From: Chthonomonadaceae bacterium
Lineage (GTDB): Bacteria; Armatimonadota; Fimbriimonadia; Fimbriimonadales; Fimbriimonadaceae
Direction: 5' to 3'
NCBI GenBank assembly: GCA_015709495.1
Contig: CP054189.1
Coordinates: 1,054,001 to 1,118,000, forward strand
Length of the DNA stretch: 64,000 nucleotides
Shown in pieces: positions 20,349 to 49,361 of the stretch (position 1 is the stretch's first letter; each line of letters starts with the position of its first letter). The translations under genes were made by a program, and so were the position numbers. Below the pieces are notes generated by a model. It did not search any database, had not been told where the DNA came from, and worked only from the letters and a program-made list of their open reading frames with translations.

Positions 20349-21548
20349 TCAGACGCCGACTCGATCGCGGACCCTTTGAAAAGCCCTCAAAGCGAATTCA
20401 AGGTCGTCGGGCGTGTGGGTGGCGTTGGGCATCGTGCGGATTCGAGCCTTGCCTTTGGGCACCGTTGGATACACGATGGAAAGCGCGTACACCCCTTCTT
20501 CGAAAAGCGCCCTCTCCGCCTCTTGAGCCGCCCTTTCATCGCCGAAATACACGGGGGTGATGGGCGTTTCACTCCCCATCGTATCGAACCCGGCTTCGGC
20601 CAACGCAGACTTCCACCAGTTGGTGTTTTCCCACAGCCGGCGCATCGGTTCGGGGTCGTGCTCCATGACCTCGAGCGAGGCGATCAACGCGGCGGGCACC
20701 ATCGGCGGGTGGGCCGTGCTGAATAGGTGAGGCCGGCCGCGGTTGATGAGCCATCGCTTGAGCGGATCGGAACCTGCGATGTACCCGCCCACAACCCCCA
20801 GCGCCTTGGAGAGAGTTCCGAGTTGAATGTCCACCCGCCCGTACAGCCCATAGTGCGAGGTCGTTCCCGCGCCTTTCTCGCCGAGTACGCCCGATCCGTG
20901 AGCGTCGTCGACCATGAGAACCGCGTCATAGCGCTCGCACAACTCGACAATCTGCGGGAGCGGTGCGATGTCTCCGTCCATGCTGAACACGCCGTCGGTG
21001 ATCACGAGCTTCTTCTGAAACCCCCGCTGCTGAGCCCGCCGCAAGCAGTCTTCGAGGGCGTTCATGTCCTTGTGCGCATAGACCCACCCGTCGCTCTTGC
21101 GATACTCCGCGCTGGAAAGCCTGACCCCATCGATGATGCTTGCGTGGTTCAGCTCGTCCGAGATGATCACGTCCTGGTTCGTGGTGACGGCAGGAATGCA
21201 CCCTGAATTGGCGGTGAATCCAGACGTGAACACGAGCACCGCCTCGACCTTCTTGAACTTCGCGAGCCTTTGCTCTAGCTCTTCGTGGACGGTCATTTCG
21301 CCGCCGATCCAGCGCACCGCGCCCGCGCCCACGCCCCACCTCTCGACCGCTTCGAGCGCGGCTTGCCGAACCTTGGGGTGATTGGCGAGCCCCAGGTAGT
21401 TGTTGCTGGAAAGGTTGACGACCTCTTTGCCGTCCATCCGCACCCTGCCGCCTGCCGGAGTTTCGAGCACGCGAGGTTGCTTGTAGAGGTGCTGATCTTT
21501 GAGGTCCTGGAGGTTGGAGGCGAGCCAGGACTGGAACGCCGTGTTCAT
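20349..21548 (-). CDS. kbl: glycine C-acetyltransferase / 2-amino-3-ketobutyrate CoA ligase family PLP enzyme
   Basis: This 399-residue alpha-oxoamine synthase is of the Kbl/BioF family. The start MNTAFQSWLASNLQDLKDQHLYKQPRVL matches Kbl-like proteins. The PLP lysine is in GTLSKALGVVGGYIAG, and the cofactor-binding Asp and His are in LMVDDAHGSGVLGEKGAG. SSNNYLGLANHP and GSGAVRWIGG-like AGAVRWIGGEMTVHEELE are family signatures. Kbl cleaves 2-amino-3-ketobutyrate to glycine and acetyl-CoA, but BioF and other synthases share this fold, and no tdh or bio genes are adjacent. I chose ATG 21548 over a longer frame to 21722 because conservation starts there. Confidence 0.85.
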   Translation of the reverse strand: MNTAFQSWLASNLQDLKDQHLYKQPRVLETPAGGRVRMDGKEVVNLSSNNYLGLANHPKVRQAALEAVERWGVGAGAVRWIGGEMTVHEELEQRLAKFKKVEAVLVFTSGFTANSGCIPAVTTNQDVIISDELNHASIIDGVRLSSAEYRKSDGWVYAHKDMNALEDCLRRAQQRGFQKKLVITDGVFSMDGDIAPLPQIVELCERYDAVLMVDDAHGSGVLGEKGAGTTSHYGLYGRVDIQLGTLSKALGVVGGYIAGSDPLKRWLINRGRPHLFSTAHPPMVPAALIASLEVMEHDPEPMRRLWENTNWWKSALAEAGFDTMGSETPITPVYFGDERAAQEAERALFEEGVYALSIVYPTVPKGKARIRTMPNATHTPDDLEFALRAFQRVRDRVGV

Positions 21549-21751
21549 GGCCCATTGTAGCGCGTCGATGCGCCGGCCGCGATCTCGGAGAGGCTGCCGA
21601 ATCAGCGGAAAGGTAATTGCCGAAACGGTGACGGTCCCGCTCTGGCGCCCCAGAAGAGCTTTCTTAGTCGGCCCGCGAGTTCGGCATCTGCCTTCGTTCG
21701 ACCTCCGCCTAGCGTTCTGCATCCGCTAAGGAGGCATCTTTCAGCAGGCGT

Positions 21752-22081: not shown

Positions 22082-22585
22082 TCAATCTTCGCAGCAGTCA
22101 AGGGCGCGGTTCAAGGCGCTCAGGTCGTCGGGCAGGGCAGCGAGGAACTCCAGCGTGGGGATCAACTGGCCCTCGAAGCCTTCAAACAGATAGTAAACCT
22201 TCTTTGGGTAGGCGCCGAATGCATGGACGCCAGGCCGCTCGGTATTGACTTGCCAAGGCCCTGGGGGCAATTCAGCAAGCTCGTTCATGGCCCGTTGGAA
22301 TTCGGCGATCTGGAGGAACGGCTGGCTTGTGAGCAGACAGCCCGCAAGGAGCGGCACGTGAGCTCTCGCCCATGAGGCAAGGTGAGCCGCGGAGTTGCTC
22401 ATTGCGCTGAAGCGTCCAGGAGTATGCAGAGGGTGGCGAACATGGACTCCGGAGTGGGTGATCTCGCCCTCTCCATCGTCGATGGGCAGGTACTGCGTCC
22501 AAGGCAACCAGGATCCACCTGCCGCCCGAGCGCACCGAAGGTGGATCTGCCCCAACTGGGTTCGGGTGTCGTCGTCCAACGTCAT
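22082..22585 (-). CDS. unknown protein translationally coupled to the giant beta-helix gene
   Basis: This 167-residue protein has no recognised domain. It is rich in aromatic and Leu residues (SWLPWTQYLPIDDGEGEI, then PKKVYYLFEGFEGQLIPTLEFLAALPDDL) and ends with paired cysteines (DCCED). It has no signal peptide or membrane span. ATG 22585 overlaps the upstream stop by four bases, so it is made together with the 1489-residue protein and may be its partner or immunity-like factor; this is inference. A longer frame to 22648 is unlikely. Confidence 0.6.
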   Translation of the reverse strand: MTLDDDTRTQLGQIHLRCARAAGGSWLPWTQYLPIDDGEGEITHSGVHVRHPLHTPGRFSAMSNSAAHLASWARAHVPLLAGCLLTSQPFLQIAEFQRAMNELAELPPGPWQVNTERPGVHAFGAYPKKVYYLFEGFEGQLIPTLEFLAALPDDLSALNRALDCCED

Positions 22586-25500
22586 CCCTTCCGCTCCTTG
22601 AGTCGCGGGATGAACTTGAGAAGGTTTTGGACGACCAGTGCGGCCCAAATCCAGCCGATAAGTGAAAGCGCGCTGGCGACCTGGCTGTATGTGGGCCTAA
22701 GCGTGTTCCCTGTCGCCTCGTCGTTCTTGATCTCCGGAAAGCGGATCGGCATGTCAGATGCGGCCCACTGAGTCCGAACCTGTGCGTTTGAGATCGGCCA
22801 GAAATACCCCATCGTGAGATAGAACGCGTCCCCAACGCTACTTAACTGGGTTCTTGCGACCGCTCCCTTCGGCTTGAGTTCGATCACCGCTCCTTCAGAT
22901 TGAAACAAGGCCGTGCCCCAAATGGTTAGGATCGCGAGGAGTCCGACGAGAGGTGAGGTCCTGACGCCGTGTCCGGTAAGCATGTGGAGCAAGAGAGAAG
23001 GCAACCAACGGAAGCTGTGAGGGGACCGAAGGAACTGAAGGCGCTGCCACTGGAGGCTGACCTTGTCTGCGTCAGAGTGGTTACCCTCGGCCCGGAACTG
23101 CCGTTCCACGGTTGCGAAGATGCCTTCATCGTTCTCGGCAAGGGCAAGGACCTGGATGTAGTCGTGGATTCCTCTTCGCCTCACGATCCACGCAGTCGCG
23201 ACGAGCAGCGTAAAGGCTATGAGAACACCCAGAAAACCTACATATACACCCAAGCGATGCGCGAGAACTGCGAGGGCCAAGAAGAATGCAAAGGAAACCC
23301 AGGCCCACTGTACCGCGCGGTCAGAGCCCCAAGCTTTCTTGATCCTCGTCCAGTAGTGGGACGACGTCGACGCGAACGATGCGAGGTAGGTGAGGCCACC
23401 AACAAAGGCTACGCTCACTCCATACCATGGACCGAAAGCGAGGTGAGTCGTCAGCCAAACCATGGCCCACCCGACTCCTACGCTGTGAGCGAACAGTGAT
23501 TGCCCGCGAGAAAGTGGTCTGCTTTGCCCACCGAAGACTTCGCCCGAAAGTCGCTCACGATCCTTCTGGCCGATGCTAACCGAGTCGACGCGAACGTCGC
23601 GGAATGAATACGCTCTGCCCAACAGACTGCCTTGACCCATGCAGAGACTTGAGGCCCGGCGAACGCACCCACGGGCGGCAACGACGAGGACTCCGATCGC
23701 GACGTAAGTTGCGATTACCGACATCCTGTCCCACTCCCAAAACAAGGTGAATAAGAGGGGTGAAAGCGCGAGCAAGCATACAGCGGCCGAGAAAAAGAAA
23801 TTACCCGCGAATTCGCAGCCCTTGGACTTCTGGACGCGCCGCTGCTCCTCAGTCGAGTCGTTATCTTCAGGCTTCTGGTTTTGCTGCGCTTGTTGTCCGG
23901 TCTCACACGGACTTTCACTAACCCCAGTATGAAACTCAATGGCTCTGGCCCTCAGAGACGCGAAGTTCAACGCCACTTGGCCTTCGGCGGGCCTGAGGGT
24001 CGAAGGGATCTCCGGAACTTCATCGATCACGAGGCGGGAGCCCACAGTTGCCCCAGCCATTTCAATCAACGGTGCAGAGGAATTGCCTTGGGTAGCCTTC
24101 GAAGGAGGGCGAAAGCAAATGCCCTGCAGAAAGAGGTCACCCGCGAAGGAAGCGCCCACAGCGCGAATGCCCGTCCATGCCCCCTTGGGACCCACTCCAA
24201 TCCCAATGAGGCTGCGAAGGTCTTTCTCGTTCGATTCTTGACGGCCCGATAAGGATTGTCCGAGCGCAATTTTGAACGGGGAGAAGTCCGCCTGCCCTTC
24301 GATCTTCGTCCTTGCCATGATAATCCCGTGCGTGAGATGGCACCCCCCGGCGAACAAGTAGCCATGCACCTCTGAGCCCGTGCCCATGACCGACACTCGG
24401 AGCTTGTACTCGTGGTCCTTGGTGCTCCGGCTCATTCCCATTCCGGTACAGGGTCCGATCAGCGTCCTTTCGTAAATCAGAGTGGCGTGCGATGCATCGG
24501 CCGCGTTCATCAGGTGGGGTTGAAGGACGATATGGCCACCGATTGTCGCATTGCTGAACCGGAGGCCCGAAGTCAGAATGGAGCCTCGAAGGTCGATGTC
24601 TCCGTCCATCTGGGTTCCCGTCAAGTCGACGCTGTAGACGCTCTTTCCCGTTTCGACGGCAGGTCCGATGAACGTCGTGAAATACGTTTCGTCTTTGTAC
24701 TGTTTGGTTGCGATGAGTTTGGATTCACTTGCGGCGTCGGAACTTGCAGGTTCAGGGCGTTCGATTCCTTCCAGCATAAGGCTGCCGCCGAGTTTGGCGC
24801 TTTGGCAAAGGATGCCTCCCAAGGCAAACAGCCCTCGAAGGTCGACATCCCCTTCGATCTGGAGGCCGTTAAGGAGCAAGGAGGCTTTCTCACCCTTCGA
24901 CCAATATCCCTGGCCGATGAAGGCTCGGCGCTCGTCGGTGCCGTATAGGCTGTAGTAGCAACTTTTCAGTAGATAGGGTAGTCCCGTCCGATCATGGTCG
25001 AACCAATAAGAATTAGCGCTCAAGTCGCCCTTAACGGACGCGTTTTCGAGGCTGAGACCCGCCGCAAGGTACGCGCCGATGAGGTTCACCGAGCCCCCTA
25101 TCGTCGTGGCCGTCAGGCGGAGCGAGTAACTTCGGCCCTCAGGACCCGAAGCTGCGCCGATCATCGTGCGGCATCCGCCCCAACTGTCTGCGGATACCAT
25201 GCCTTGCACCTTGGCGCCGTAGAGGTTCACCCCGTTCGTGAGAATCGCGCCGCTGAGCGAGACGTAGCGGCCGACTTGGAGGTTCTCTCCTGTAATGGAG
25301 GCCGCCATATCTCTGGACTTCGGGTGGGGGCCGATCACGGTGGGAAACAGGTCGGAGAGATCTTTTTTGCAGGTGGCATCTGACACCGCTTTCCCCTCCG
25401 CGACATTGGTGGCGCGGCAGATCAAGTTGCCTTCGATGACCGCCGCCGAAACATCGAGCCCTTCCGAGATCAGCGCCCCTTGGAGCGACAAATCGCCCCG

Positions 25501-27051
25501 AATCGTCACCGACCTTAGGCTGAGCTTCCCGCTGATGTGTAAGAAGGAGTGGCTGTCTTTGTCGGCAACGCTCTGGGTCCAGTCTTCAAGGTCCAGGCGG
25601 CATGTGCAGTCAAACTTCGTGGGGCGAGACTTCGTGTGGACGGGCCATTCCTTATAGAGGGCCGCCAGCGGGTTGAGGAACTTAAGGCCGTTCGTTCGGG
25701 ATTTCACCCCCGAGTTATTGGGGCCCCGCTTGAGGACTGTGTTCGAGAACTCATGGAGCAGATTGCGCAGAAGTTCAGAGTCGTCTTTCGAATTTCTCTC
25801 GAGGTCGTCGAAGGCGCCGCTGCCCTCAGCCAGGAACTGGAACCTCTTCGACTTCAGGTGGGTGGGTTGGGAAATCAATTCGAGTTCTTTATTCGTGGCG
25901 CTCTCGCAGATTCGAATGATCTCGACAGCGTGCCTGGCGTATTCGGAGATGGCGGGAACCGTATTGCGCCAACTCGGTTTCCTCCGGCCGGCAGGAGTGC
26001 GGTTGCACTTCCCCGAGCGGTGGCCATACAACGAGCCGATCTCCGAGAAGTCCAAGTCGACGCCGTCTCCGAGGAACGCGCCCGAGAGGTCGAGCAGTCC
26101 CTTGATCGTACACCGAGCGGCCCGGATTCCACCCCGCAGTTCCGTTGGTTCTCCCTCGGCATTCTCGAGCGCTTCCTTGAGGTCGGGTTGCCGCAGCACC
26201 TTCGGATCGCCGCGGTCGTTCGGAAACCAAGGCCTTGCGATCAAGGTCTGGCCGATCGTTGAGTTCGAGAAGATCGTTCTGCCAGCAACAAGGGTCCCTT
26301 GAAGGTAAACGTCGGATTCCACCTGAACCCCATGCAGGTCGAGCATTCCGCCGACGAAGGCGTGGGCGGGGAGTTTCTTGAGAGCGGCACTGAGCTTTGC
26401 ATTTTGTCCGCTAAGCGCTTGGAGCTCAGAGTCGGACACCCACTGCGCGAATCGGAGAGTTCCTTCGATCACTGCGTTGACGAGGCGAAGGTCCTTCACC
26501 ACTTGGACGCAACTCAGGTTGACGGTTCCCTTGCAGCGCAGATCCGTTAGGTCGATCAGACCGGCAATGGAGTTTCTCTTATAGGAGTCCTGCTGTAAGT
26601 TCCTTTCGGCGGACATGAGGTTGATGAGGAGCGCGTCGCTGATGCCAAGATCGTGACCGGCTTCCTCCTTGATCGGACCTGCGCGCAAGCCCGCTCCGAC
26701 TTCGAGGCCAATTCCCCGGATCGCGCCTTCGACCCAGATGCCCCTCATGTCGAGTTCCCCCTCGATCTTGGTGGCGCTTAGGTTGAGAACCGTGGTGTTC
26801 GGGTTCTCCAACTTGAAGTCTCCAGAGGAGCCGCGGGCTCGAATCGTCAGCCCCGACAAGTTCATCGCGCCCTTGCAGACACAATTCTCGAGTTTGAGCG
26901 GAGCATCGAGGGCGCGGCCCGACAAATCAAAGCCCTCGTCGAAGGTGCAGTTCTCAAACGTATGGGCATCCACTCCTGAACCAGCATACGGGGCACTGTA
27001 GCTGCCCCGTGAGAAACCAATGCTCTTGCCTGCGATTGTTATGCTTGGCAC
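22582..27051 (-). CDS. giant beta-helix membrane protein with degenerate two-helix ion-channel module
   Basis: This 1489-residue protein has three parts. Residues 1-1060 are dozens of short strands of the form 'I-G-L-L-GA-', for example TKIEGELDMRG and GTQMDGDIDLRGSIL, predicting a right-handed pentapeptide-like beta-helix with an inserted helical segment near 350-470. After a charged linker come about six membrane spans (1095-1310). The end matches the linker-plus-channel layout known from pentapeptide/ion-channel proteins: ERQFRAEGNHSDADKVSLQW, TGHGVRTSPL, a span, a pore-helix-like GDAFYLTMGYFWPIS, and a last span. The TVGYGD selectivity filter is missing, so K+ conduction is doubtful. It lacks a signal peptide, placing the helix in the cytoplasm. 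Confidence 0.75.
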   Translation of the reverse strand: MPSITIAGKSIGFSRGSYSAPYAGSGVDAHTFENCTFDEGFDLSGRALDAPLKLENCVCKGAMNLSGLTIRARGSSGDFKLENPNTTVLNLSATKIEGELDMRGIWVEGAIRGIGLEVGAGLRAGPIKEEAGHDLGISDALLINLMSAERNLQQDSYKRNSIAGLIDLTDLRCKGTVNLSCVQVVKDLRLVNAVIEGTLRFAQWVSDSELQALSGQNAKLSAALKKLPAHAFVGGMLDLHGVQVESDVYLQGTLVAGRTIFSNSTIGQTLIARPWFPNDRGDPKVLRQPDLKEALENAEGEPTELRGGIRAARCTIKGLLDLSGAFLGDGVDLDFSEIGSLYGHRSGKCNRTPAGRRKPSWRNTVPAISEYARHAVEIIRICESATNKELELISQPTHLKSKRFQFLAEGSGAFDDLERNSKDDSELLRNLLHEFSNTVLKRGPNNSGVKSRTNGLKFLNPLAALYKEWPVHTKSRPTKFDCTCRLDLEDWTQSVADKDSHSFLHISGKLSLRSVTIRGDLSLQGALISEGLDVSAAVIEGNLICRATNVAEGKAVSDATCKKDLSDLFPTVIGPHPKSRDMAASITGENLQVGRYVSLSGAILTNGVNLYGAKVQGMVSADSWGGCRTMIGAASGPEGRSYSLRLTATTIGGSVNLIGAYLAAGLSLENASVKGDLSANSYWFDHDRTGLPYLLKSCYYSLYGTDERRAFIGQGYWSKGEKASLLLNGLQIEGDVDLRGLFALGGILCQSAKLGGSLMLEGIERPEPASSDAASESKLIATKQYKDETYFTTFIGPAVETGKSVYSVDLTGTQMDGDIDLRGSILTSGLRFSNATIGGHIVLQPHLMNAADASHATLIYERTLIGPCTGMGMSRSTKDHEYKLRVSVMGTGSEVHGYLFAGGCHLTHGIIMARTKIEGQADFSPFKIALGQSLSGRQESNEKDLRSLIGIGVGPKGAWTGIRAVGASFAGDLFLQGICFRPPSKATQGNSSAPLIEMAGATVGSRLVIDEVPEIPSTLRPAEGQVALNFASLRARAIEFHTGVSESPCETGQQAQQNQKPEDNDSTEEQRRVQKSKGCEFAGNFFFSAAVCLLALSPLLFTLFWEWDRMSVIATYVAIGVLVVAARGCVRRASSLCMGQGSLLGRAYSFRDVRVDSVSIGQKDRERLSGEVFGGQSRPLSRGQSLFAHSVGVGWAMVWLTTHLAFGPWYGVSVAFVGGLTYLASFASTSSHYWTRIKKAWGSDRAVQWAWVSFAFFLALAVLAHRLGVYVGFLGVLIAFTLLVATAWIVRRRGIHDYIQVLALAENDEGIFATVERQFRAEGNHSDADKVSLQWQRLQFLRSPHSFRWLPSLLLHMLTGHGVRTSPLVGLLAILTIWGTALFQSEGAVIELKPKGAVARTQLSSVGDAFYLTMGYFWPISNAQVRTQWAASDMPIRFPEIKNDEATGNTLRPTYSQVASALSLIGWIWAALVVQNLLKFIPRLKERKG

Positions 27052-39276: not shown

Positions 39277-41037
39277 CTAACCGGCCTGCTTCGCCTCTAG
39301 AGCCGGTGCCAACAGCTTCCTCAAATGCCCTTCAAGCAATTTCGAGCGTTCGATCAGAAACTGATCGAAGTGCTCCACCGAATAGAGCTTTGCATCAGCA
39401 GGTATGAAATGGCGGTCCAGGAAGCTCGGATCACGGGTCGTGATCCACTCCTCGAATGGTGTTGCCGACTTCTCCTGATTTTCCGCCGCACTCAAAAGAC
39501 AGAGATTCGCCGTCCGATTTAGTGGGCTGTTCCAGGAATACACCGGTTCTTCAAAATCCTTTGTCGGCAGTTGCGTTGATCTTGGGAAGATATGGTCAAT
39601 GTGCAGGTCCGATGCACCAGCAATCCCTGAGTAGAACAGGGAAAGCACCGCTCTTATGTGAGAACCGTAGTAGCCGAGGTCCATTGCTTCCGCAATAATG
39701 CCGGTCAAAAGTTGATCGGAACTGCCGTCATTGTCCGCTATCAATCCCAGGAGAGGGAATGGCTTGTTCCCTTCGACTGCTTTGCGGATCACGTCCCTTG
39801 CCTTCGACAGGGCAGAGTCTGCACTGCTACGGAACTGACCCCGAAGTAAGGCAAGCACGAGCCAAGCATGGATCGACTTAGCGTTCAGCACGTCGTCGAT
39901 GGAAGTCCCGTCTGGACGAAGATCACGTCGCTTCGAGTAGAAGTAGACAATGGGGATCAGCGCGTTCGTGCTTGTCAGCGTGTCGCCGGTGATTCCATAA
40001 GCACTAAGAAGATCGACCGCCTTGCCAATCGCCTTCTTCGACTCAGTCCAGTTCTCTTTGATCTTCAGCAGATTGGCGTCCGTGAAGTTCTGGACCCGAT
40101 ACTTGACGGGAAGATCGTTAATGACAAGGCTTGCCTTCATCACGAAGTCCTTGTCAATTTCCGACCGCCTTGGAAGAGATCGGTTGAGGCGATCTACGAG
40201 CGATTGAATCTCGTATCGTGCGTCGATGTTGCCCCAGCTTGCCGTGATCGTACTCATGAGCAGGTCTGACTTGCTCAGCTTCGTTCCGCCCGAGTTCGCT
40301 CGAACGAAGACATCGAGAACCCGGTCGTAATCTTGCTCACGTTCGACGTAATAGGCGATCACGTCGTCCTTGTGGATTGCTCTGTAGAGTCGATCCAGGT
40401 TCATTCGGGCCGCACGACGTTGTTCCTTCGTCGTGCTTTCGTCAATGGACTCAACGAATTCGTCCCTAAACTCATCGAACTCCCGATCCGACTTGAACGA
40501 GAGAATCTTTCCAACCTCGAACCAGCGGCTTTCCCCGTTCCCCTTGCCGCCCTTTCCCTTGTCTCGAAACTCAAACCTGAAGAAGTTGTCTTCGTAGTTT
40601 GGATCGACCAAGGTCAGCGGGTCGTGGAGAATATCGAGAAACAGGGTCCGTTTGCTCCAAGCGTCTGGGTTGTCCTTTCTACCGTACTTCTTCTTGACCG
40701 TATAAGTGCCGCGTAAACCGATGTTCAATGAGGTGAGCCGTTGCTGCCCATCGAGGATCAGGTGAAGTTCGGTCACGGCACTCAGATTCGCTTCTGGATT
40801 GTGGACCCCGCCGTCCTTCCCGTCAATCAAGAACTGGTATGCCCTCCACTTGTCGTAATTCGCGGCCTCAATCGCCCAGAAAAGGAAGGAACTGATCGGG
40901 TAGCCGCGCAGAATCGAGTCGAACAATTGCACGATCTGCGAAGAGTCCCAGACGAACTCCCGTTGAATCGCAGGGAGGTAGTAGTTCGCGTTCAGCCTTG
41001 CGATGGTGTTTGCGATCGTTTCAGTCTTGTAGCTCAT
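39277..41037 (-). CDS. DUF262/DUF1524 nuclease-like protein (GmrSD-like)
   Basis: This 586-residue protein has an N-terminal DUF262 domain with ILDGQQRLTSLN (DGQQR at 96-100), the nucleotide-handling motif of the ParB/DUF262 fold. A helical middle follows. The C-terminal DUF1524 HNH-type nuclease has HIDHIFPRS (479-487), then NRTANLCLL and NQEKSATPFEEW. This arrangement is that of type IV modification-dependent restriction enzymes (GmrSD) and related defence proteins, which cut modified phage DNA. It starts six bases after the AlbA_2 gene stop, so the two form one operon. A defence role is well founded for the family, not shown here. Confidence 0.82.
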   Translation of the reverse strand: MSYKTETIANTIARLNANYYLPAIQREFVWDSSQIVQLFDSILRGYPISSFLFWAIEAANYDKWRAYQFLIDGKDGGVHNPEANLSAVTELHLILDGQQRLTSLNIGLRGTYTVKKKYGRKDNPDAWSKRTLFLDILHDPLTLVDPNYEDNFFRFEFRDKGKGGKGNGESRWFEVGKILSFKSDREFDEFRDEFVESIDESTTKEQRRAARMNLDRLYRAIHKDDVIAYYVEREQDYDRVLDVFVRANSGGTKLSKSDLLMSTITASWGNIDARYEIQSLVDRLNRSLPRRSEIDKDFVMKASLVINDLPVKYRVQNFTDANLLKIKENWTESKKAIGKAVDLLSAYGITGDTLTSTNALIPIVYFYSKRRDLRPDGTSIDDVLNAKSIHAWLVLALLRGQFRSSADSALSKARDVIRKAVEGNKPFPLLGLIADNDGSSDQLLTGIIAEAMDLGYYGSHIRAVLSLFYSGIAGASDLHIDHIFPRSTQLPTKDFEEPVYSWNSPLNRTANLCLLSAAENQEKSATPFEEWITTRDPSFLDRHFIPADAKLYSVEHFDQFLIERSKLLEGHLRKLLAPALEAKQAG

Positions 41038-41043
41038 CTGGAT

Positions 41044-43026
41044 TCACTTGCCCGTAATGTGGTACCGCTGATCGGGTCGGTTCGGCTTGTCGGGGAACTG
41101 GGGCGCAAGCCGTCCCTCCCGAACCAAGGCTCGGACATAGAACTCAGCGACATGCCTTGGTTTGCGCCGGATGTAATGTGCGATCTGGTTCGGCTCAAGG
41201 GGCTTCCAAGCGCAAAGGTTCAGGATTGCCTGCTTGACTTGATCGGGCGAAGCCCTTCTGCCCAAGCTGTCCACTACGTCCTGAAGCTCCGGTGGCAAGG
41301 GTTCGTGCGCTCCTGTCAGTCCGCCGGACTCTACTGATAAGCTGCCGGACTCTACAGATAAGCCACCTGACTCTACAGGCAAGGACACAATTGAACCTGG
41401 CTCCGGCGGTTCATCCAGTGCGCTTGTCTGTGGACCAGACTCTCCAGACAAGCGCTTGCCAGGGTAATAGATCGTATTCGGTCCTTGTCCGCGCTGTTCG
41501 AGAAGACCGAGATTTCGGAGCCGTTGAAGCCGTCGGCTCGCTGTCAGTGTGTCAATCTTGAAAAAGGTTCTGACGATGCTGTTATTGACCAGCCCCAGCT
41601 CGCGTGTCACGATCAGGATATGGGCTTCATCCTCACTCAGGCTGCAGTCTGAAAACTGAGACAGCCATTCCACGTCTTCCTTCCCAAGCAAGTGATGGGT
41701 GAACAGCGTGACGGCGAACCGGTTACCCACCCGATCCGATTCGAGGATCGGTTCGGAGAGGTTGGCCCGATTCATGGCCTCAATCATTGTTCGGATTCCG
41801 CTTCCCTTGGTCTCCGCAAACCCGACGTCATGCAGGACAGCAGCAATCTTCTCGTTACGGTGAAGCGAACCTGGCTCTCCAAGCCGCTCATCGGGAACGA
41901 GCGAGTGCCCCGGGTTCCGTATCTCAATGCGATTCGAATAGCGGATGATCTGCACCGGTTGCCGGATGGAGTAGTTCCGGTGCATCAGCGCGTTCACAAC
42001 AGACTCGCGAATCACGACTTCAGGGATCAGTGGCTGATCCTGCCGCTGAATCTGACCCCGTGGCAAGTGAAACGCCTTCGGAATATCGCCCAAGACAAGG
42101 GACACAATTCGAGGGATCAACACGATCAGCGGTTCGAGGTATTCCTGGGTCGCGAAGCGCCTCTGCGCGTCAGGAACCCAGTCCCGTCCCGGCACGACGA
42201 CGTAGTCAACCCGATTCATCGGGAAGTGCCGCCTAAGTGACGACTTCTTCCCGAACAGCATCATTCCGGCAACCGTCGGGTAGACCCTCCCATTCTCTCG
42301 GGTCACAGCATGGAGCGCATAGAGAAGCTCTTCGTCGTTATAGGTAAGCTCTGAAGCAGTTGCTCTTTCCTTGCCTCGCAATCGCCTGTATTCGGTGACT
42401 GCGTCCGGGTCCAAGTCTTCGAGCGACGCGTCTCGAATGACTGTTTGATCGAATGTTCGGTGGTCCCGTTGCTGATGGAGAAGAGCGATATCGTCTTCAG
42501 TGCACTTCTGGTCCGTTGAGCCAATCCTTCGATATGAGCCGTGCTGTAGCCCCTTGCTCTGGATGTATACAGGCTTGTTCTGAGGATCAGCTTCGGGAAC
42601 GAATACCAGCACGACAGGCTTGTCTTCGACAAGCTCGGTTGTAACGACTGGACGGATCGCGACGCTAAAGAGCGAAGCGCACTGACTCGCGATGTCCGAC
42701 TGAAGCTGCTCAGGGTCCGCTACTCCTTCGACTTCATAGTCTGAAGCCATTTCCGGGAACAAGGAATCTTGCTTCCGTTCAACACCCATAAGGATGTATC
42801 CTCCTCCGCGGCCCGGCTCGTTGGCGAACGCTGAGACCGATTCCAAGAAGGACGGGCCAAGCCGTTCTCCGCGCTTCGCCTCAAGGTCAACGGACTCTTC
42901 AGTCAGGCGAAGCTTCTCGAACAGGTCCGCAAAGCTCTGATGTCCTATCGAAGCACCTCCCTGCCAAATTTCGAGCGGATCATGTTCGCCGGGTCCCTTG
43001 AGTCGGTGATCTCGATAAAGTCCCAT
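41044..43026 (-). CDS. AlbA_2 / HATPase_c_4 'RecG-like' regulator with winged helix
   Basis: This 660-residue protein has an AlbA_2 (Schlafen-type) domain at about 35-160 (ESVDLEAKRGERLGPSFLESVSAFANEPGRGGGYILMGV). An HATPase_c_4-type region at about 340-450 has NALMHRNYSIR, IEIRNPGHSL and ETKGSGIRTMIEAM. Winged-helix segments follow near 465-520 and 590-655. It lacks helicase motifs, so the common label RecG-like helicase is wrong. Between the wings is a repeat of VESG-LS units. The start is uncertain: the ATG at 43026 overlaps the type III fragment, and no better in-frame start is visible before the domain. It is co-transcribed with the DUF262 gene. Confidence 0.75.
   Translation of the reverse strand: MGLYRDHRLKGPGEHDPLEIWQGGASIGHQSFADLFEKLRLTEESVDLEAKRGERLGPSFLESVSAFANEPGRGGGYILMGVERKQDSLFPEMASDYEVEGVADPEQLQSDIASQCASLFSVAIRPVVTTELVEDKPVVLVFVPEADPQNKPVYIQSKGLQHGSYRRIGSTDQKCTEDDIALLHQQRDHRTFDQTVIRDASLEDLDPDAVTEYRRLRGKERATASELTYNDEELLYALHAVTRENGRVYPTVAGMMLFGKKSSLRRHFPMNRVDYVVVPGRDWVPDAQRRFATQEYLEPLIVLIPRIVSLVLGDIPKAFHLPRGQIQRQDQPLIPEVVIRESVVNALMHRNYSIRQPVQIIRYSNRIEIRNPGHSLVPDERLGEPGSLHRNEKIAAVLHDVGFAETKGSGIRTMIEAMNRANLSEPILESDRVGNRFAVTLFTHHLLGKEDVEWLSQFSDCSLSEDEAHILIVTRELGLVNNSIVRTFFKIDTLTASRRLQRLRNLGLLEQRGQGPNTIYYPGKRLSGESGPQTSALDEPPEPGSIVSLPVESGGLSVESGSLSVESGGLTGAHEPLPPELQDVVDSLGRRASPDQVKQAILNLCAWKPLEPNQIAHYIRRKPRHVAEFYVRALVREGRLAPQFPDKPNRPDQRYHITGK
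41324..41386. repeat. 21-base tandem repeat in the AlbA_2 gene
   Basis: Three 21-base units (CCGGACTCTAC-GATAAGC-like) lie head to tail and encode repeated VESGGLS heptads. A similar half unit lies nearby. They form a flexible linker that could vary in copy number. Confidence 0.7.
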
Positions 43027-44238: not shown

Positions 44239-45468
44239 TTAGACGAACCCCAGGCTACCGGCGATGCCAGCGATGCTTTCAGCAAACCGAAAGAGATCAG
44301 ATTCGGTGTGTTGAGAGGTCACATTGACGCGGAAGCGGCACTTGTCCTTTGGCACGGCCGGGAACCGAATCACGGGTTGATGGATTCCTGCCTGAAACAA
44401 GCGTCTCTCCGCCTCCAACCCCACGCAGTCCAAGCCCACGAGGACGCTCAGTGACGGATGGCGCTCGTCGCCTAAGACGGTCAAACCGATTCGCCGCAGT
44501 TCCGTTTCAAGCCTTCTGGCAAGCTGCAGTGCCCTTTCGCGTCGGCCATTCGATTCGCGGATAATCCTGATCGCTTCCAAGACGCCGCCAGCCGTTCCGA
44601 CTGGAAAGCACGAGGACAAGACCGACGAACGGCAGGCGACGAGCAGGAGCCTGATCAGTTCACGACTGCCGCACAGAAAGCCACCCGTCGCACCCAGGGC
44701 TTTATCCATGCAACCCATATACAGGTCGATGCCCGAGGTGTCGCCGTACAGAGAACCGGTTCCACCGCCTTTGGGACCGATCAAGCCCACCCCGTGAGCA
44801 TCGTCGACCATGAGCAGAGCTCCATATCCTCGCGCCATCGCGACGTAGGGGGGCAGATCGACGATGGTGCCCTCCAGGGTGTAGACCCCTTCGATGACAA
44901 TCAACTTCGGGGCATCGGGATAGCGGCCAAGCCGCCGATCCAGATCGTCGGGGTCGTTGTGACGAAACGGGAGGACCTTTACTTGCGCCAGGGCACAGCC
45001 GTCGATAACGGAACCGTGCATGAACTGATCGACAAACACCACTGGTTCCAGGCCCCCGCCGCTGGAAAGGATGGGACGCACCATCGCTCGAATGACTCCC
45101 ACATTGGCCATATAGCCCGTTGGAAATGCCAGGCAGGCTTCGAAGCCAGTCCATTCGGCAATAGTCGCCTCTAGCTCTGCCACCAGGGCTGGCGTACCGC
45201 CGATAGCGCGAGAGAAGCCAGGGCCGATTCCGTGATCACGGATGGCTTGGCAGGCCGCTTCGGTAACGGCCGGGTCGTCGCTCAAGCCGAGATAGTTGTT
45301 ACCAGCGAATGACAGGAAGCATTGACCGTCGATCACCGGGCGGGGACCGGTGGCGCCACCGTCGACCGTCACCAGCGCAGGATAGAGCCCGGCACCATCG
45401 ATTTCCGCCAAAGACTGCTTCCAGATTCCGCCCGCCCGCTCCGTTCCTGACCGTTCCCAATCTGCCAC
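44239..45468 (-). CDS. alpha-oxoamine synthase family PLP enzyme (AONS/Kbl/SPT-like)
   Basis: This 409-residue PLP enzyme is related to the Kbl-like protein at 20349 but clearly diverged. The cofactor lysine is in MDKALGATGGF, and the Asp-His pair in LLMVDDAHGVGLIGPKGGG. FAGNNYLGLSDDP and GPGFSRAIGGTPALVAELE are family blocks. Members condense an acyl-CoA or acyl-ACP with an amino acid (glycine, alanine, serine) and release CO2. The substrate is unknown; no bio or sphingolipid genes adjoin it. It lies in the accessory zone next to a divergent XRE regulator 74 bases away, suggesting a regulated small-molecule or lipid function. Confidence 0.82.
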   Translation of the reverse strand: MADWERSGTERAGGIWKQSLAEIDGAGLYPALVTVDGGATGPRPVIDGQCFLSFAGNNYLGLSDDPAVTEAACQAIRDHGIGPGFSRAIGGTPALVAELEATIAEWTGFEACLAFPTGYMANVGVIRAMVRPILSSGGGLEPVVFVDQFMHGSVIDGCALAQVKVLPFRHNDPDDLDRRLGRYPDAPKLIVIEGVYTLEGTIVDLPPYVAMARGYGALLMVDDAHGVGLIGPKGGGTGSLYGDTSGIDLYMGCMDKALGATGGFLCGSRELIRLLLVACRSSVLSSCFPVGTAGGVLEAIRIIRESNGRRERALQLARRLETELRRIGLTVLGDERHPSLSVLVGLDCVGLEAERRLFQAGIHQPVIRFPAVPKDKCRFRVNVTSQHTESDLFRFAESIAGIAGSLGFV

Positions 45469-46547: not shown

Positions 46548-47507
46548 GTGGTCATCTCCGCAAGTCGCAAGACCGATATACCCGCCTTCTACGGGGACTG
46601 GCTGCTGAATCGGCTCGAAGAGGGCTATTGCGTGATGCGGAACTCCTATTCGCGGCGGCCCAAGCGCGTGTCGCTCGCGCGTGAAGACGTGGATGCCTTC
46701 GTCTTCTGGACCAAGAACCCGAAGCCGTTCTTGCCAGCGCTTTCCGAGATCGCGCGCCGCAGGTTCCCCTTTTACTTGCACGTCACCGTGACGGGCTACG
46801 GCCAGCCGATGGAGCGTTCGGTGGCTTCGTGGGAGTCGGTTGTCGATTGCTGCCGTCGCTTGGTTTCCGATTTCGGGCCGAGGACGGTGGCCTGGCGCTA
46901 CGATCCGATCGTTATCACGGAAGCAATGACTCCGGCATGGCACGCGGAGAACTTCGCCCGACTCGCCGACGTCTTTGCTGGGATTTCCGACGAAGTGGCG
47001 ACATCCTTCGTCGAGCCCTACCGCAAGGTGCGATCCAATCTGGATCGACTGAGCGCAAAGACGGGCGTCCGCTGGCGCGACCCGGCTCTGGACGAGAAGC
47101 GTGACTTGGTCCGCCGGCTGTCAGGCTTGGGGGCAGAGCGCGGCATGCTGCTCAGAGTCTGCTCGCAGCCCGAAGTGGCGGGCGGCCTGCCCGAGGGGCG
47201 CTGCATCGATCCGGTTCGCCTGCGCGACGTGGGCGCGTCCAGCTTCAGCTCCCGTTCGGCGCCCACCCGGACCGGCTGCAACTGCATCCAAAGCATCGAC
47301 ATCGGGGAGTACGACACCTGCCCGCAAGGATGTGCGTACTGCTATGCCAATAGGGATCGGGAGACTGCGGTGAGGAATTTGAAGGAGCACTCAGACACCT
47401 CCGAATCCATTCTATGTCTGGGCCCGTCAGACCCTGTGACGGTGAACGGCCAAATGCACCTATTCGACCGCGGGTCTGAGCCACAGACAAGAGGATTCAC
47501 GGCGTGA
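46548..47507 (+). CDS. DUF1848 protein with C-terminal radical-SAM-like cysteine motif
   Basis: This 319-residue protein opens with VISASRKTDIPAFYGDWLLNRL, the DUF1848 hallmark, followed by FVFWTKNPKPFL and HVTVTGYGQPME. Near the end is CNCIQSIDIGEYDTCPQGCAYCYANRD, with cysteines at 244, 246, 258, 262 and 265. CPQGCAYC is a CxxxCxxC pattern like the 4Fe-4S motif of radical SAM enzymes such as spore photoproduct lyase, but at the C-terminus instead of the N-terminus. The start is GTG, without a Shine-Dalgarno site. Its stop overlaps the TcmP start (GTGA). The substrate is unknown; nucleic-acid chemistry is inference. Confidence 0.8.
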   Translation: MVISASRKTDIPAFYGDWLLNRLEEGYCVMRNSYSRRPKRVSLAREDVDAFVFWTKNPKPFLPALSEIARRRFPFYLHVTVTGYGQPMERSVASWESVVDCCRRLVSDFGPRTVAWRYDPIVITEAMTPAWHAENFARLADVFAGISDEVATSFVEPYRKVRSNLDRLSAKTGVRWRDPALDEKRDLVRRLSGLGAERGMLLRVCSQPEVAGGLPEGRCIDPVRLRDVGASSFSSRSAPTRTGCNCIQSIDIGEYDTCPQGCAYCYANRDRETAVRNLKEHSDTSESILCLGPSDPVTVNGQMHLFDRGSEPQTRGFTA

Positions 47508-48628
47508 GAAGTAAGCCATTCTTCGACGAATCGACTGAACAATCCCGCGCGAAAGCCGCGATCGTTTCGAAGTACTTCGATGCTTGGGCGAAGGTAATCA
47601 CCCGGCAGCCCCATGTGGACCGCATAGCCTACCTAGACTTGTTCGCCGGTCCTGGGAGATACAAAGATGGGACAACTTCCACCCCACTTCTCGTTCTTGA
47701 AAAGGCTATCGCAGATCCCGTTCTATGCCAGAAGCTGGTCAGCCTCTTCAACGATGCGAACACGCAAAACACAACCGACCTTCAGCAATCGATTCAAGCA
47801 CTTCCCGGCATTGACAAGCTGAAGTACAAGCCCGACGTTCGAAACAACGAAGTCGGGACCGAGATGGTCAAGCAATTCGAAGCGATGAAGCTTGTCCCTA
47901 CTCTTTTCTTCGTTGACCCGTGGGGCTACAAGGGCCTATCACTTGGACTCGTAAACGCGGTCGTCAAGGACTGGGGATGCGAATGCGTGTTCTTCTTCAA
48001 CTACACGCGTATCAACATGGGCCTGACGAACGAGTTTGTCATTCAGCACATGGACTCGCTGTTTGGAAAGGAAGTCGCCGACAATCTACGGCAGCGGCTA
48101 AGTAGCTACACAACACCGCGTGATCGTGAACTTGACATCGTCGAATCGCTTTGCAAGGCATTGAACCCTGATGGGAAGCGGTTCGTCCTTCCCTTCGCGT
48201 TCAAGAACGAGTCTGGTCAGCGGACAAGCCATCATCTGATCTTCGTTACCAAGAACAGCCGTGGCTACTCCATAATGAAGGAAGTTATGGCTCGTGAAAG
48301 CACGTCACAACCCCAGGGCGTCCCGAGCTTCACGTACAACCCTGCTGACGCCCGGTTCCCGGTCCTCTTTGAATATGCAAGGCCCCTGGACGATCTAAAG
48401 GGCATGCTTCTCGATCAGTTCCAAGGCCAAGCCCTGTCGGTCAAGGCGATATGCGAGAAGCACCATGTCGGGCGCCCGTTCATTGAGAAGAACTACAAGG
48501 ATGCGGTGATCCAGCTTGACGATCAGGGGATCGTTACCACGAATCGCACCGACGCCCATAAGAAGCGCGGTCAGTGCCCGCCCGACAAGGTGATCGTGAC
48601 CTTCCCAAGGAGTCTCAAGAATGGCTGA
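47504..48628 (+). CDS. tcmP: three-Cys-motif partner protein TcmP (methyltransferase-like)
   Basis: TcmP proteins are named because they occur beside a 'three-Cys-motif' DUF5131 protein, as here. The 374-residue protein has YLDLFAGPG (residues 43-51), similar to SAM-binding motif I of methyltransferases, and [10 protein letters not shown] (135-144), similar to the DPPY-like catalytic motif IV. A C-terminal winged-helix-like part (about 305-355) includes [25 protein letters not shown] methyltransferase-fold role is therefore likely, while DNA or RNA modification is inferred. The GTG start overlaps the upstream stop by four bases. It overlaps the next start by eight. Confidence 0.85.
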
Positions 48629-49361
48629 GTCCTGCATCGAATGGACCGACTCCACCTGGAACCCGACGACCGGCTGCACCAAGATCAGCCACGGATGCAA
48701 ACACTGCTACGCCGAACGGATGGCAAAGCGGCTCAAAGCAATGGGTCAGCCGAACTATAGGAACGGCTTCAGATTGACCCTTCACGATCATATGATTGAG
48801 CTTCCCCTCAAGTGGTCGAAACCGCAACGAATCTTCGTAAACTCAATGTCCGACCTATTCCACAAGGACGTTCCCCTGGACTTCATTCTTCGGGTCTTTC
48901 AGACGATGCTCAGGGCTGACTGGCATCAATATCAGATACTGACCAAGCGAGCGGACAGGCTTGCGGAACTCGACAAGGACCTGCCTTGGGCAAACCATAT
49001 TTGGATGGGCACTAGCGTGGAAGACGAGCGTGTCAGAGAAAGGATTGACCACCTTCGACGCACGAGTGCCAAAGTGAAGTTCTTGTCTCTGGAGCCTCTA
49101 ATCGGCCCCTTGCCGAACCTCGACCTGAGCGGAATCGACTGGGTGATCGTCGGCGGGGAGTCCGGCCCCGGCGCAAGACCCATGAAGCCCGAATGGGCAC
49201 GGGATTTGCGCGACCAATGCCAATCTGCGGGTGTCGCCTTCTTCTTCAAGCAATGGGGCGGAGTCGTCAAGAGCCGCAATGGCCGGGTGCTCGACGGGCG
49301 CACTTGGGACGAGTACCCAAGCGTCCGATCGGAAGAGTCCAGGCTTTCGGCCATGGCCTGA
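48621..49361 (+). CDS. DUF5131 (phage Gp37/Gp68) three-Cys-motif protein
   Basis: This 246-residue protein starts [37 protein letters not shown], which defines the family. Cysteines at 19, 26 and 29 give Cx6CxxC, a radical-SAM-like iron-sulfur site. [36 protein letters not shown] and [32 protein letters not shown] follow in the expected order. The gene is found in phages and mobile elements. It overlaps TcmP and ends five bases before the tRNA-Pro repeat. Its activity has not been established for the family as far as I know; a nucleotide or nucleic-acid modification step is plausible. Confidence 0.85.

Follow-up and report, generated by a model that had tools for sequence, protein, structure and literature searches.

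Genes and Features of the Locus

The window, i.e., the whole stretch of 64,000 nucleotides that was analysed, belongs to a host genome assembled as a single contig of 2.9 Mb. Judged by eye from the PEP-CTERM proteins, the lineage looks Fimbriimonadales-like. The features considered here are all on the (-) strand and are given in window coordinates:

22582-27051, (-): giant beta-helix and membrane protein gene (P0001), GTG start, 1489 aa
23932-27051, (-): beta-helix-like region, residues 1-1040, with inserts, presumably cytoplasmic; from 11/22-residue periodicity and Pfam
23662-23799, (-): extra membrane spans 1 and 2, residues ~1085-1130 (1086-1104 and 1112-1130, both strong); from hydropathy
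23197-23484, (-): further extra spans, residues ~1190-1285, two weak followed by two strong; from hydropathy and a low-confidence model
23002-23166, (-): helical linker, residues ~1296-1350; a homolog of the linker 'PQPYEQLAxVLRxxGHDEDAxxVL' found in the filterless family described below
22903-22959, (-): penultimate TM helix, residues 1365-1383, preceded by 'GHGVR'; aligns with 'YGRQP' and the TM of relatives
22789-22809, (-): GYFWPIS, residues 1415-1421; P1419 and W1429 have the P-x9-W spacing of the filterless family
22618-22686, (-): last TM helix, residues 1456-1478; from hydropathy and model
22082-22585, (-): small ORF, 167 aa, starting in ATGA; no TM, no family, species-specific

The 1489-residue protein announced in a preliminary description of the locus is encoded by a genuine reading frame, with an in-frame codon score of +0.137, negative scores in all other frames and an ortholog (1516 aa, 89% identical) at the same place in a second genome of the species (G159). 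Over the whole gene, dN/dS between these two orthologs is 0.34-0.36. Four further genomes of the same family likewise have full-length giant homologs, namely G004 (1463 aa), G033 (1482), G013 (1557) and G144 (1640), and matches to the giant protein were found in 7 out of 291 genomes of the phylum. The giant gene is thus real, though patchy in its distribution. In both genomes of the species it is flanked by housekeeping-type genes on one side and a VWA-type gene on the other. In G001, the sole other genome of the genus, the adjoining kbl-type gene is kept and the upstream content differs. Two glycine C-acetyltransferase/serine palmitoyltransferase-type genes were recognised by eye in the same window (20349-21722 and 44239-45468).

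A Predicted Pentapeptide-like Beta-Helix

Hydrophobic positions in residues 1-1040 recur with periods of 11 and 22 residues (z of 7.1 and 3.4 compared to shuffles), and the Pfam model Pentapeptide_3 matches the protein above its cut-off (39.3 versus 27 bits), with 36.9-104.6 bits in the homologs. Both observations bear out the giant beta-helix-like part that had been proposed. A run of at least eight consecutive AxLxx pentapeptides (20-residue coils) does not occur in the protein; a single 31-residue stretch matched. Because the period is 11/22 rather than 5/20, the N-terminal region is best called a pentapeptide-like beta-helix, a relative of the classical pentapeptide proteins rather than one of them. 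Residues 401-500 (window 25552-25851) are hypervariable, being only 66% identical to the G159 ortholog compared to 93-94% in the flanking blocks. Topology was derived from hydropathy and flanking charges: the positive charges around the spans fit a cytoplasmic N-terminus and no signal peptide was seen, which would place the beta-helix in the cytoplasm.

Membrane Spans and C-Terminal Unit

The count of about six extra spans holds, with four clear spans and about two weaker ones. The strong spans of the second set lie at 1246-1264 and 1267-1285; the weaker ones lie at 1190-1235, and one of them passes the threshold in G159. They are followed by the charged, helical linker and by the last two spans, which are separated by a 70-residue loop carrying GYFWPIS. 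This string indeed stands between hydrophobic spans, where TVGYGD would be expected in a pentapeptide/ion-channel fusion, and neither a TVGYGD-like string nor a T-x-G-Y/F-G selectivity filter is present in the sequence. Likewise, Pfam PF07885 (Ion_trans_2) gives no match to the protein or its homologs up to an E-value of 10.

When dN/dS against the G159 ortholog is calculated by part, it amounts to 0.46 for residues 1-1040, 0.31 for the extra spans and 0.066 for residues 1291-1489, making the C-terminal membrane unit the most constrained part of the giant gene. A constrained tail combined with a variable beta-helix would fit a conserved output attached to a diversifying surface for sensing or docking.

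Separate Ion_trans_2 genes are absent from the genome of the window (G000) and from G159, G004, G033 and G013. They are present in 45 of the 85 genomes of the family, including G144, which has a giant protein itself. The twelve such genes fetched from the family's genomes encode channels of the RCK type; none is a beta-helix fusion.

A Widespread Family without a K+ Filter

A search of plasmids with the G013 homolog retrieved proteins of about 570-750 aa in Rhizobium, Microvirga, Mesorhizobium, Rhodococcus and Streptomyces, and the tails of these proteins, when run against 84,980 species genomes, yielded 106 relatives, 80 of which were kept, all alphaproteobacterial by title. These are the other members lacking a filter that the preliminary description had called for. 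They form an unnamed family, represented by L039, by WP_237371179.1 of Rhizobium sp. SL42 and by L038 of S. chartreusis, and none of the Pfam and NCBIfam models searched covers its membrane unit. The linker 'PQPYEQLAxVLRxxGHDEDAxxVLIxKE' leads to a first TM in 'VTVxYGRQPLLAxxWLxxFWxxG', the loop ends in 'MYSLDVLLPVLSIGQKxFWRP', and the last TM follows in 'FQSxVGWALSLLAVAGFSGLVK'. The place of the TVGYGD of channels is occupied by a 'SLDxLLPV...W' element, in which nine residues separate the W from the P, and no TVGYGD or T-x-G-Y/F-G filter is found in the family sequences examined. In L039, Q529 and W533 are invariant positions and P523 is nearly so.

The giant protein shares with this family the predicted pentapeptide-like beta-helix, the helical linker, a YG-R-P/GHGVR segment followed by a TM, a loop with hydrophobic-P-x9-W/Y, a last TM and the lack of a K+ filter. 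The hydrophobic-P-x9-W/Y/F element reads WPISNAQVRTQW in the giant protein and occurs in 35 out of 39 rows of the filterless family as well as in G013, with a chance of about 3.5% in each case; the P-x9-W spacing is missing in G004 and G033. By alignment, GYFWPIS corresponds to the SLDxLLPV element and not to a recognisable decayed TVGYGD. On the other hand, family members have only two TMs and 574-750 aa, whereas the giant protein has 1489 aa, about six more spans and a loop in which the SLD part is not kept. Going by these alignments, filterless ends are the rule in a large alphaproteobacterial and actinobacterial family rather than a peculiarity of this protein, so that a stand-alone new type is not supported. 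The proposal of a channel-like module without a filter is borne out in outline. As judged from sequence comparison, the protein is an outsized form, with additional spans, of a beta-helix family that is widespread and unnamed and ends in a filterless, channel-like two-TM unit. It stands out by its size, by its additional spans and by having lost the SLD motif.

Among the neighbours of loci L039-L118, named from a look at the sequences and the annotation of L033, transporters of the SLC13 type (26 loci) and AbgT type (23) and subunits of Na+/H+ antiporters (15) were noted. Most of these neighbours point towards or away from the family gene rather than forming an operon with it, and they offer no firm clue. 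A tblastn of the tail against plasmids returned chance matches only (Cupriavidus, Sinorhizobium), and scans of viral contigs with P0001, P0004 and the S. chartreusis tail returned no relatives.

Structure Models

A confident AlphaFold model was obtained for the family member L039 (alignment of 35 sequences, pLDDT 88). It comprises a beta-helix at ~80-330, linker helices at 361-373, 377-398 and 402-422 and a TM at 425-448. After a small extracellular part come a short helix on MYSLDVLLP (513-521) and a TM at 542-567. Its N-terminal part superposes on solved right-handed parallel beta-helices with Z up to 19.4 (rmsd 4.3 over 292 residues). The Foldseek and VIA rows are mostly beta-helices and pentapeptide proteins that barely cover the membrane unit, and a sequence search of the PDB found no solved relative.

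For the giant protein, distant relatives were left out of the modelling alignment since MAFFT misplaced the P region, and the single-sequence model of residues 501-1489 is poor (pLDDT 37); the right-handed beta-helix fold is seen for the relative L039 only. At this low confidence, helices are placed at 1309-1321, 1325-1341, 1344-1359, 1367-1386, 1406-1417, 1424-1430 and 1455-1486. Their order is the same as in L039, which is consistent with a shared architecture of the modelled unit but is no proof of it. A helix-pore-helix end, for which an AlphaFold check had been suggested, is predicted with confidence, as helix-short helix-helix, in L039, while in the giant protein it appears at low confidence only.

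Relationship to Pentapeptide Channels

Profiles were compared with hhalign, using 40 column-shuffled profiles (for the giant family versus the filterless family) and reversed profiles as controls. The tails of the giant family match the filterless family with scores of 43.1 (E 8e-6) and 37.6 (E 9e-5), compared to at most 19.9 for shuffled and 14.8 for reversed profiles. The filterless family in turn matches pentapeptide channels with TLGYGD from haloarchaea and Aeromonas, scoring 38.4 where no control exceeds 23.3, and these channels match Ion_trans_2 pores (69.8; controls at most 22.4). The direct comparison of the giant tails with the TLGYGD channels is marginal (23.2; controls at most 16.2, reversed 20.3), and neither the giant nor the filterless tails score above controls against Ion_trans_2 pores directly.

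The matched part in this chain consists of the linker and the first TM. For the second half, i.e., the P-like element and the last TM, the giant family reaches a marginal 17.6 against the filterless family (control 15.6), and the filterless family is not above controls against the TLGYGD channels (15.2 versus 17.7). The chain thus argues well for homology of the linker and first TM, is suggestive for the loop and is silent on descent of the loop from a K+ pore. The filterless unit has either lost a K+ filter or never had one.

Through this chain, the proposed layout, with the linker and TM-x-TM order of pentapeptide proteins fused to ion channels, is recovered by way of the filterless family. 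Relatives with channel modules accordingly exist one step away, and the suggested profile check came out divided: Pentapeptide_3 matched and the indirect chain stood, but a direct Ion_trans_2 match did not emerge. The haloarchaeal proteins WP_233340543.1 and WP_168654377.1, pentapeptide proteins with an Ion_trans_2 pore, are related to the giant protein in beta-helix, linker and first TM through the filterless family; their pore helix is followed by TLGYGD (or TLGYGG), which the giant protein does not have. Streptomyces proteins ending in 'SVVFRSSGQxLT' (P0007) represent another filterless version of the linker-TM-x-TM plan and score 51.7 against the TLGYGD channels (controls at most 20.8). 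They differ from the giant protein in the element between the TMs, and the sequence link between the two is weak (20.0 versus a control of 17.6). Such pentapeptide proteins were seen in 93 plasmid records, from Streptomyces and related plasmids (e.g., L036:2611-4653, Streptomyces sp. NBC_00015); one of them has a weak match to the HalA model, taken up below.

Proposed Function and Alternatives

The best reading, to which we give about an even chance, is that of a giant extra-span beta-helix protein with a channel-like filterless unit, in which the cytoplasmic beta-helix would act through the linker on a pore or gate other than a K+ filter. The beta-helix would serve as a sensor or docking rod in the cytoplasm, and its state would reach the TM pair via the helical linker. 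The two-TM unit may oligomerise into a membrane pore or gate without K+ selection of the TVGYGD type, and the extra spans may anchor the two-TM core or pack around it. Channel activity is predicted here from sequence relationships; a role as mechanosensor, which had also been put forward, found neither support nor contradiction.

The main rival is a membrane-anchored cytoplasmic scaffold, in which the two-TM unit would be a non-conducting, channel-derived anchor and the beta-helix would organise other proteins at the membrane. This is a serious possibility, though short of an even chance. Across the whole filterless family, there is neither a filter nor a recognisable pore signature, and a precedent exists in HglK of Nostoc, a pentapeptide protein of the cytoplasmic membrane with a role in the cell envelope and septal junctions (PMC8145042). 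HglK and the giant protein both join pentapeptide repeats to several cytoplasmic-membrane spans, but in HglK the spans are N-terminal and the repeats C-terminal, and no channel-like unit is described for it in PMC8145042. The scaffold reading also has to account for the strong constraint on the C-terminal unit (dN/dS 0.066) and for the retention of specific positions (Q529, W533 and nearly P523 in L039), both of which go beyond the needs of a plain anchor.

Two further explanations concern a partner or ligand, and both are improbable, the second slightly more so. HalA of the Hailong system combines a pentapeptide-like domain with an ion-channel effector, a plan similar to that of the giant protein, which might analogously be a defence or stress effector that is kept shut by a ligand on the beta-helix and opens to depolarise the cell. 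HalA is described as an ion channel blocked by poly-dA (DNA) adducts of HalB (PMC13275509). This precedent, the patchy distribution of the giant gene and a weak match of a relative with this class of module in Streptomyces to NCBIfam anti_phage_HalA (E 2.9e-6, 26.7 bits versus a cut-off of 250) speak for such a role. That match spans the beta-helix repeats only, however, and the giant protein itself has no match in PADLOC or to anti_phage_HalA (up to an E-value of 10), neither a nucleotidyltransferase nor a HalB partner was seen beside it, and its housekeeping-type and VWA-type flanks are the same in both genomes of the species. The other explanation would join both genes into one system, with the 167-aa protein gating or assembling the large one. 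The stop codon TGA of the giant gene lies inside the ATGA overlap with the small ORF, an arrangement kept in G159, and the small ORF has coding-type codon use. Its dN/dS between the two genomes of the species is 0.8-1.0, without detectable constraint; none of 60 other related genomes, three of which have a giant protein, yielded a homolog, and the family-model searches gave no match. As the small protein is missing beside other giant homologs, it is no required subunit of the family. The coupled partner of the preliminary description hence stands as far as the overlap is concerned, but a functional coupling is not supported, and the small ORF is probably accessory or incidental and does not encode an obligatory subunit.

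Returning to the channel-like reading, a bolder and rather unlikely extension is that the filterless unit defines a distinct class of pores over several phyla that are not K+-selective and whose gating is exerted by a beta-helix rod on the cytoplasmic side, to which the giant form would add a multi-span collar and an unusually large single-chain beta-helix sensor. The matter is of interest as the filterless unit occurs in many alphaproteobacteria and also in actinobacteria while lacking a model among those searched. Should the unit conduct, it would illustrate how a pore functions when an unrelated element stands in for the K+ filter, and what is sensed by the cytoplasmic beta-helices of channels. 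Should it be non-conducting, a channel-type unit would have been reused as the anchor of a large scaffold.

Other Genes in the Window

Elsewhere in the window, inspection by eye revealed adjoining genes resembling a three-Cys-motif partner protein and a phage Gp37/Gp68-type radical SAM protein (46548-49361), a set that is frequent with mobile or defence DNA. At 39277-43026, also by eye, a DUF262/GmrSD-like gene lies beside an AlbA_2-type ATP-binding gene, possibly as a defence pair.
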